Source: Novosphingobium barchaimii LL02 (GTDB lineage Bacteria; Pseudomonadota; Alphaproteobacteria; Sphingomonadales; Sphingomonadaceae). Taken from it: DNA of 64,000 bases. The notes under the pieces were generated by a model. It was not told the origin of the DNA, made no database searches, and saw only the letters and a list, made by a program, of their open reading frames with translations. A program made the position numbers and the translations under genes. Shown here one piece after another: positions 44,779-44,904 of this stretch (position 1 is its first letter; the number at the start of each line of letters is the position of its first letter). Location of the stretch: positions 565,501 through 629,500 of the forward strand of contig NZ_KQ130454.1 of the NCBI RefSeq assembly GCF_001046635.1. Direction: 5' to 3'.

Positions 44779-44806
44779 AAAAGCCCCGCCTGCCGTGTGC
44801 GGGGTC
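44779..44806 (-). terminator. attenuator terminator in the asd leader
   Basis: On the minus strand CCCCGC (44804-44799), loop of nine, GCGGGG (44789-44784), extended by G-C at the base, then CTTTTC. It lies 17 bases after the leader-peptide stop region and 50 bases before the asd start, i.e. in the untranslated leader. Confidence 0.75.
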
Positions 44807-44856
44807 GGTGTTCGAGTGGTGCCTTAGATCACGCACACCACCGACACCGACCGCGC
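44799..44856 (-). promoter_or_regulatory. antiterminator of the asd attenuator
   Basis: On the minus strand GCGCGGTCGGTGT (44856-44844, inside the leader-peptide codons) pairs with ACACCGACCCCGC (44811-44799) at 12 of 13 positions, with GTGGTG/CACCAC continuing the stem inward. The second arm contains the terminator's CCCCGC, so the two structures exclude each other. Confidence 0.65.
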
Positions 44857-44904
44857 GATGGCAGTCGGTTTCGGGGTGGTAATAATGATCGGCTTTGCGA
44901 ACAT
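44824..44904 (-). CDS. asd leader peptide (attenuation)
   Basis: A 26-codon open frame from ATG 44904 to TAA 44824 on the asd strand, reading [20 protein letters not shown] and then SVVCVI. It has five Ile, three Thr and four Val codons, including a III-TT block at codons 6-10. Composition, size and position before a terminator/antiterminator pair are those of the ilv/thr leader peptides. No strong ribosome binding site is visible (AGTGGCG upstream), so translation is inferred. A CATAAT -10-like box lies upstream (minus strand, near 44950). Confidence 0.7.

Follow-up and report, generated by a model that had tools for sequence, protein, structure and literature searches.

The question raised by this locus is whether the short region between a small open reading frame and asd acts as an amino acid-responsive switch and, if so, what it senses and which step of asd expression it controls. 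In the window, i.e. the whole stretch of 64,000 nucleotides analyzed, the gene taken as the regulated one lies on the minus strand (43698..44726). Its 342-residue product scores above the cut-offs of PRK14874 and TIGR01296 (420 bits with the latter NCBIfam model, cut-off 324), in agreement with its identification as aspartate-semialdehyde dehydrogenase by an earlier, sequence-only reading, which had proposed a leader-peptide attenuator upstream of it. The working principle is indeed that of a leader-peptide attenuator, with the 1:2 helix of the scheme described below left without support in swap and shuffle tests. It is fairly probable, in our judgment, that this ribosome-mediated attenuator senses charged Thr, Lys and Ile tRNA and that its conserved output is a relay of pairings ending at the asd Shine-Dalgarno sequence.

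All the parts of the element are on the minus strand. The leader open reading frame (44824..44904) has 26 codons, from an ATG at 44904 to a TAA, and was found as proposed when read on that strand, with Ile at codons 6–8 and 16, Thr at 9–10 and 14, Lys at 4 and 12, and four Val near the end; its position and its Thr, Lys and Ile codons are conserved in relatives. The ATG of asd, at 44726, is 178 bases from that of the leader, the 176 given previously being slightly short. Segment 1 (44861..44869, ACCGACUGC) is, in the window fold, the partner of segment 2 if no ribosome sits on either of them. Segment 2 (44844..44856), the 5′ arm of the antiterminator, pairs at 12 of 13 positions with the 3′ arm, segment 3 (44799..44811), the 3′ half of which doubles as the 5′ arm of a terminator-like hairpin, 3:4 (44779..44804). 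In this hairpin 44804-44799 pairs with 44789-44784 at six of six positions, forming a 6-bp stem with a loop of 9 bases, followed by C and UUUU (44782-44779). Both pairings, as well as the inclusion of the terminator 5′ arm in the antiterminator 3′ arm, are as originally claimed. A simple terminator scan that allowed loops of 3–8 bases did not list the hairpin, with its loop of 9.

The comparison of relatives added two parts to those of the first scheme: segment 5, which is C-rich and lies between the hairpin and the asd start, and segment 6, at the Shine-Dalgarno sequence. According to the window folds, segment 4 (44784..44794, GGCAGGCGGGG) is the partner of segment 5 once segment 2 holds segment 3, and segment 5 (44749..44760, CCUCGCGCUGCU) is an anti-Shine-Dalgarno arm that alternates between segments 4 and 6. 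The hairpin 5:6 (44733..44756) hides the Shine-Dalgarno sequence by pairing GCG 44756-44754 and CUCC 44750-44747 with GGAG 44740-44737 and CGC 44735-44733.

Upstream of the leader there is a promoter-like site (44912..44940, minus strand) composed of TTTACA (44940-44935), a 17-base spacer and TAGTGG (44917-44912). A loose version of it, with TTTAC at about −37 and TA at about −14 from the leader ATG, recurs in 29 of the 41 non-redundant leaders of window-type asd for which the upstream sequence is long enough, and from this recurrence the RNA would be expected to begin at the leader ATG. The leader mRNA would thus be leaderless, with a predicted start within a few bases of that ATG; trpL of Sinorhizobium is reported as leaderless in the available part of PMC10117765. 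Farther upstream, an inverted repeat of the CTTCGACAAGCTCAGG type (44971-44986 and 45037-45052) is placed between the asd promoter and a glutamyl-tRNA-synthetase-like frame, named by eye, that ends beside or within the repeat; the window contains five arms of this type with up to 2 mismatches, versus 0.03 expected.

Conservation was considered in loci retrieved by Asd protein similarity alone, with no leader model involved. The best 80 matches of the protein search comprised 17 alphaproteobacterial and 63 actinobacterial asd loci. Among these matches, 14 of the 17 alphaproteobacterial loci, all with window-type asd, have the leader, with 23–29 codons and located about 160–190 bases before asd, and the other three (L006, L009 and L011) have none; the genera of the 17, according to record titles, include Novosphingobium, Sphingosinicella, Caulobacter, Asticcacaulis, Hyphomonas, Reyranella and others. 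In the family of N. kunmingense, a window-type asd (71–87% identity) occurs in nine of 149 genomes, and the leader in nine of the nine. As L001 belongs to both sets, 22 loci in all have the leader with its paired arms, and two of them (L012 and L090) are nearly identical; this recurrence is the strongest argument that the element is real. The small frame and the arms are thus conserved in relatives, as the sequence-only reading would require, and the arms of 2:3 and 3:4 covary in the swap tests presented below. Each of the nine N. kunmingense-family genomes has a second asd match of 51–55% identity, which is the main asd of the family, so that the window-type gene looks, by sequence, like a second, separately controlled Asd.

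Two covariance models were trained on asd leaders, R1 from 23 elements and R2 from 47. With R1 there were matches at E ≤ 0.01 in 38 of 385 genomes of the class, some of the weak ones probably due to chance. With R2 at E ≤ 0.001, matches occurred in 42 of 200 genomes of the order of a Caulobacter genome, 13 of 246 of the order of N. kunmingense and 43 of 76 of the order of genome G508. A control set of 87 loci (63 actinobacterial asd, 21 main-type asd and the three leader-less alphaproteobacterial window-type loci) yielded four hits at a threshold of E = 1, none of them better than E = 0.11. Judged by these matches, the putative leader switch extends beyond asd and beyond the genus. Rfam release 15 gave no match on the window leader (43500-46500, E up to 1) and none on the asd leaders when 15 loci, eight of them asd, were scanned at E up to 0.5; identity with a known Rfam element was therefore rejected for the asd leaders scanned.

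In total, 169 elements were gathered, of which the 149 that had an ATG or GTG leader and could be assigned to a named gene class were retained. Nineteen labelled ‘other’ were dropped, some being probably chance matches; one of them, L122, precedes asd in a frame other than the one chosen by the script. The removal of near-duplicates left 90 elements, of which 59 precede asd (44 window-type and 15 other-type). Leader starts were picked by script as the ATG nearest the usual place, which in L003 was an inner ATG. The classes of downstream genes were assigned by BLAST against four queries and, for hisS, aspartokinase and GNAT, by ad hoc short sequence motifs, with NCBIfam spot checks of one asd per type, one thrS, one hisS, one dapA, two aspartokinases and one GNAT protein. 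In these checks the dapA and both aspartokinase-homoserine dehydrogenases stayed below the curated cut-offs, the loci ending inside the genes.

The codon content of the leaders points to the amino acids sensed. Thr and Lys are present in 59 of the 59 non-redundant asd leaders, and Ile in 41. Before segment 2 they account for 30% (Thr), 14% (Lys) and 9% (Ile) of the residues, versus 3.9%, 3.1% and 4.4% in the Asd proteins, i.e. enrichments of 7.5-, 4.5- and 2.1-fold. Thr, Lys and Ile are products formed downstream of Asd, so the short open reading frame upstream of the gene carries codons for products of the pathway. Since the models were trained on asd leaders, part of the Thr and Lys content could come from model selection; both residues are present as well in the 22 loci found through the Asd protein. 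The sequence-only reading had linked asd to the charging of Ile-, Thr- and Val-tRNA. The counts agree with Ile and Thr and add Lys, and Val sensing was rejected, because 44 of the 59 asd leaders have no Val before segment 2. At least one Val codon in or behind segment 2 is kept in 45 of the 59, i.e. too far along the leader for a stall to take effect, which leaves Val unsupported as a signal.

A class-wide, protein-based sample independent of the leader model was also used, with 110 matches (30 loci plus 80 fetched; G209:C95, both G001 rows, G197:C6, G214:C60, G185, G207 and rows weaker than G276:C20 were left out). A small open reading frame with at least seven Thr, Lys or Ile in 12 codons was found in 16 of the 110 asd upstream regions versus one of 110 on the opposite strand; three of the 16, which are AT-rich (L341, L362 and L375), may be chance hits. 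R2 matched seven of the 110 regions at E ≤ 0.001. In L286, L304, L325, L352, L354, L366 and L378 the Thr and Lys are clustered toward the end of the frame and the R2 match is weak or absent; these frames perhaps represent a second leader design for the same signal.

The models also matched before thrS, hisS, dapA and the gene of a fused aspartokinase-homoserine dehydrogenase, where not every pairing is supported; the gene names in each class rest on the NCBIfam check of one or two members. The eight thrS leaders contain 37% Thr and 3% Lys, the eight hisS leaders 39% His and 13% Thr, the six dapA leaders 17% Lys, and the two aspartokinase-homoserine dehydrogenase leaders 37% Thr. Small proteins are sometimes encoded in front of genes, and the leader might be just a small protein-coding gene, or the region plain secondary structure, with no amino-acid regulation in either case; the way in which leader residues track the downstream gene (Thr, His, Lys), together with the covariation of the arms of 2:3, 3:4 and 4:5 in asd elements, makes this extremely improbable.

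Several observations were made on individual loci. The asd-trained model found 17 hisS loci with a His-rich leader (e.g. MTRTPHHHGHHHHPT...): L219 (1501-1642, plus strand), L173, L216-L218, L220, L222-L225, L229, L230, L234 and L238-L241. The hisS leader of L219 is overlapped on its opposite strand by a match to CC3513, an Rfam family for a Caulobacter sRNA, so CC3513 may be antisense to this leader or strand-confused with it. Nine thrS loci have leaders (L126, L130, L133, L135, L139, L264, L265, L267 and L270), seven of them with runs of four to seven Thr codons, L139 with three and L270 with two; these elements are possibly transcription attenuators of threonyl-tRNA synthetase. The leaders of the dapA-like loci (L137, L215, L245, L246, L248, L250-L252, L254 and L255) are mostly Lys-rich (KSKK, KAK, AKK), as a lysine-specific version. 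Elements also precede genes of GNAT-like acetyltransferases, classed by motif (L226, L233, L237, L247, L253, L256, L258, L259, L261 and L263), with leaders not obviously rich in any one amino acid; no NCBIfam model matched the GNAT-like protein of L237. L231 contains a SAM riboswitch (1110-1227, minus strand), a few hundred bases upstream of the leader of the aspartokinase-homoserine dehydrogenase gene and on the strand opposite to it. In L145 (1501-1662), a weak model match covers a small leader before a short DUF1127-like frame, named by eye, which recalls the uORF-controlled DUF1127 gene of Sinorhizobium described in the available part of PMC12218461.

The pairing of the arms was compared across asd elements. 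Segments 4, 5 and 6 are GCGCGGGG, CCCCGCGCCUCC and GGAGACGC in L003, and AUGCGGGG, CCCCGCAUCUC and GGAGAUGC in the more AT-rich L004. In L001, the closest by Asd among the matches listed, segment 4 holds GAGCAGG and segments 5 and 6 are CCUGCUCUUUCG and CGAAGGAG; all three are unlike those of the others and still match one another. Segment 5 thus retains its match to segments 4 and 6 even though the three differ among these loci. In a swap test, the own arms of each of the 59 non-redundant asd elements were scored against arms exchanged between elements. Own arms were better in 43 elements for 2:3 (p = 6e-4), 44 for 3:4 (p = 2e-7), 52 for 4:5 (p = 6e-8) and 38 for 5:6 (p = 0.035; 27 of 44, p = 0.30, in the window-type alone). 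The narrow result for 5:6 is due in part to the Shine-Dalgarno sequence, which cannot vary; versus shuffled arms, the own arms of 5:6 were better in 52 of 59 (p = 2e-9). For 1:2, own arms had no significant advantage over swapped (35 of 59, p = 0.16) or shuffled ones (33 of 59, p = 0.17). In the other-type asd alone (n = 15), 2:3 (p = 0.24) and 4:5 (p = 0.07) were below significance in the swap test. For thrS, dapA and hisS together (n = 22), own arms were better in 22 elements for 3:4, 19 for 4:5, 17 for 5:6, 12 for 1:2 and 7 for 2:3. The test windows followed the asd layout, and the one for segment 1 shares a few bases with that for segment 2, so that the failures of 1:2, and those of 2:3 outside asd, may be partly technical.

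Alignment A3 contains 49 asd elements (43 of the 44 window-type, L131 being left out, and six of the 15 other-type), with 90.7% of cells paired in 1:2, 92% in 2:3, 96.8% in 3:4 and 85.5% in 5:6. The helices of the free state are paired in 91.3% of cells versus 44–58% when the structure is slid, and those of the stalled state in 88.5% versus 43–60%. Cells changed on both sides number 19 in the free state (shuffles 4.1, slid 3–9) and 13 in the stalled state (shuffles, mean 6.1; slid 5–15), the latter not exceeding the structure slid by −2 (15) or +2 (13). The covariation score of the stalled state is 0.115 (shuffles 0.094, with one of 500 as high; slid at most 0.090). Since the free-state structure guided the fitting of A3, the count for the stalled state is the less dependent of the two. 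The best contiguous helices of 4:5 and 5:6 overlap in only 26 of the 59 asd elements. Counting contiguous 4:5 helices was discarded as of little use, since one of at least 6 bp is present in 58 of 59 elements versus 69% of shuffles, segments 4 and 5 being G- and C-rich. Downstream of the regulatory codons there are mutually exclusive pairings, 2:3 versus 3:4 and, in the window, 4:5 versus 5:6, with 1:2 lacking support.

The folding of the window, truncated in three ways, gives the predicted states. The segment 44910-44779 folds with −59.1 kcal/mol versus −44.3 ± 3.7 for 200 shuffles, none as good. When folding starts from segment 3 (44813-44726), 3:4 and the Shine-Dalgarno hairpin are predicted (33 of 200 shuffles as good); without segment 3, segments 4 and 5 join over 11 pairs (13 of 200 as good); and a fold that includes everything from segment 2 onward has both 2:3 and 4:5 (0 of 200). 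Mean accessibility of the Shine-Dalgarno sequence in the free state of window-type asd elements is 0.23, versus 0.41 in shuffles and 0.30 with segment 5 alone shuffled, in line with a hidden Shine-Dalgarno. Removal of segment 3 increases its unpaired probability from 0.26 to 0.40 in the window, 0.00 to 0.65 in L001, 0.21 to 0.84 in L002 and 0.44 to 0.86 in L004; accessibility is unchanged in L003, L005 and L013 under equilibrium folding. Increases above 0.3 on this removal were seen in 15 of 76 window-type and three of 26 other asd elements (shuffles 10.6% each), 12 of the 59 non-redundant asd elements, one of nine thrS, none of 17 hisS, none of nine dapA, one of 10 GNAT and neither of the two aspartokinase elements. 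Folding from segment 2 on gave a clear rise in 10 of 76 window-type and eight of 26 other asd elements (shuffles 6.2% and 5.6%). With a clear switch only in a minority, equilibrium folding was set aside as proof of switching, and the translational step is derived from the conserved pairing, not from energies alone.

The remaining question is the output of the switch. The UUUU after the window 3:4 stem means that plain termination could suffice there, and a classical transcription attenuator alone would operate by stalling, formation of 2:3 and prevention of the terminator 3:4, the downstream pairings being by-products. The covariation of 2:3 and 3:4 in asd elements fits such a device, as do the at least five U in the eight bases after the stem in five of eight thrS and five of six dapA elements (non-redundant; hisS, none of eight). 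The same U-run is found, however, in only six of the 44 window-type asd elements (four of the 44, the window among them, have UUUU), though 3:4 is kept, and segment 5 beats swapped arms in its pairing with 4 and shuffled arms in its pairing with the Shine-Dalgarno, so termination as the whole explanation for asd appears unlikely. The scarcity of U-runs in window-type relatives also speaks for Rho-mediated control, in which leader translation or stalling would mask a Rho site between leader and asd and the hairpins would be secondary; the available part of PMC12218461 presents a uORF-controlled, probably Rho-dependent attenuation of a DUF1127 gene in Sinorhizobium meliloti. This would leave the kept alternative pairings and the conserved segment 5 unexplained, and we regard it as highly improbable.

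The relay to the Shine-Dalgarno sequence accommodates these data better than termination as sole output. A hairpin hiding the Shine-Dalgarno in one state is present in the window fold and backed by the 5:6 statistics of asd elements. At least five contiguous pairs cover the Shine-Dalgarno core in 40 of 59 asd elements (shuffles 42%), eight of eight thrS (66%), five of six dapA (62%) and one of eight hisS elements (7%), this low coverage suggesting that hisS elements may work otherwise. With a U-rich tail in so few window-type elements, translational control is probably the conserved output of the asd switch; termination seems to be an optional addition in asd, and both outputs may operate in the window. 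The original proposal of a ribosome-mediated asd attenuator thus stands as to leader, Ile and Thr codons, mutually exclusive arms and conservation, and probably gives way as to an output by terminator only.

From the leader, codon content, conservation, paired arms and covariation of most arms, as computed here, we infer where transcription starts, that the ribosome stalls, in which order the segments fold, how translation is affected and how much termination counts, as follows. Transcription would begin at or beside the leader ATG. With plentiful amino acids, the ribosome would reach the leader stop and cover segment 2; segment 3 would pair with 4, giving in the window the hairpin with its UUUU, and 5 with 6, so that the asd Shine-Dalgarno would be hidden and asd off. 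With scarce Thr-, Lys- or Ile-tRNA, the ribosome would stall at codons 4–14, covering segment 1; formation of 2:3 would free segment 4 to form 4:5, the Shine-Dalgarno would be exposed and asd would be on. Premature termination at 44779 may contribute in this genome.

A wider proposal can be put forward only tentatively, at somewhat less than even confidence: an as yet undescribed alphaproteobacterial family of leader RNAs would control asd, thrS, hisS, dapA and aspartokinase-homoserine dehydrogenase through peptides that spell the relevant amino acid, the asd form being a six-segment relay to the Shine-Dalgarno with a gate that fires when Thr, Lys or Ile is short, and the thrS and dapA forms ending more often in a terminator. 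If true, the multi-input gate of asd would fit the branch point served by Asd.

Concerning precedents, no title or abstract opening on asd attenuation was found in the literature searched, largely without subscription papers, and neither was an asd relay to the Shine-Dalgarno nor an asd/thrS/hisS/dapA family. In the available text of PMC4833913, asd, thrS, hisS and the class names are absent. An earlier description may exist in Lopatovskaya and others 2010, cited in the part of PMC10272879 available for its treatment of attenuation of amino-acid and aminoacyl-tRNA operons. The sequence-only reading knew of no attenuation of asd, and this holds for the mechanism in the literature searched; a leader peptide has been suggested once, in Sinorhizobium. 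There, according to the accessible part of PMC10117765, the translated sORF SEP5 of Sinorhizobium meliloti, with six Thr and three Lys codons, lies in the 5′ UTR of an ‘aspartate dehydrogenase’ gene, which is probably asd; it is termed a possible leader peptide and said to be conserved only in Sinorhizobium. Unlike the asd switch, SEP5 is given no RNA structure or mechanism in that part of the paper. The frames of the class sample that resemble SEP5 in their 3′-clustered Thr and Lys (e.g. L286, L325 and L354) have a weak or no model match.

Other leaders in print share some of the features, as far as the available parts of the papers go. The uORFC-8-2 motif of Rhodobacterales, a Cys-codon leader before cysS (PMC8632094), is likewise an alphaproteobacterial leader peptide before an aminoacyl-tRNA synthetase gene; it differs from the asd leader in being a transcription attenuator with a U-run terminator, in the gene and in the order. 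In bacilli, terminator searches found His leader peptides before hisZ and a hisS paralogue (PMC2965389), in which the authors see no similarity to other leaders; like the hisS elements described here, they have His codons before hisS-family genes, in another phylum. In Actinobacteria, also another phylum, the LEU element and the ileS T-boxes combine a leader-peptide or tRNA signal with Shine-Dalgarno pairing (PMC1262725); the Leu codons of the former pair directly with the Shine-Dalgarno, ileS uses a T-box, and the six-segment chain is not described in the part available. Leader coding sequences before trpS and ilvIH are reported in Caulobacter (PMC4117421).

With trpS/ilvIH, cysS and His leaders in print, there is precedent for the general idea. 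What seems to set the conserved alphaproteobacterial form apart is that it ends at the ribosome-binding site and not in termination, and its peptide of about 25 codons seems to bring together several end products of one branched pathway, which would help to explain how aspartate-semialdehyde supply is set in these bacteria. The covariance model can be used to find such leaders elsewhere, and the scheme makes simple predictions for ribosome profiling and reporter tests.

Leader-peptide attenuation is a textbook form of RNA control of amino-acid genes, usually based on termination and on one or a few amino acids. The enterobacterial thrL and ilv leaders have runs of Thr and Ile codons and mutually exclusive antiterminator and terminator arms. 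The asd leader is like them in its Thr/Ile codon runs and in arms that exclude each other, and unlike them in the gene, the Lys codons, the Shine-Dalgarno hairpin at the end of the chain and the rarity of the U-run. In the translational attenuators of the erm type, stalling in a leader frame opens a hairpin that hides the Shine-Dalgarno, the signal being a ribosome-binding antibiotic. The asd leader would share with them the stall-opened hairpin, whereas its signal would be uncharged tRNA for Thr, Lys and Ile.
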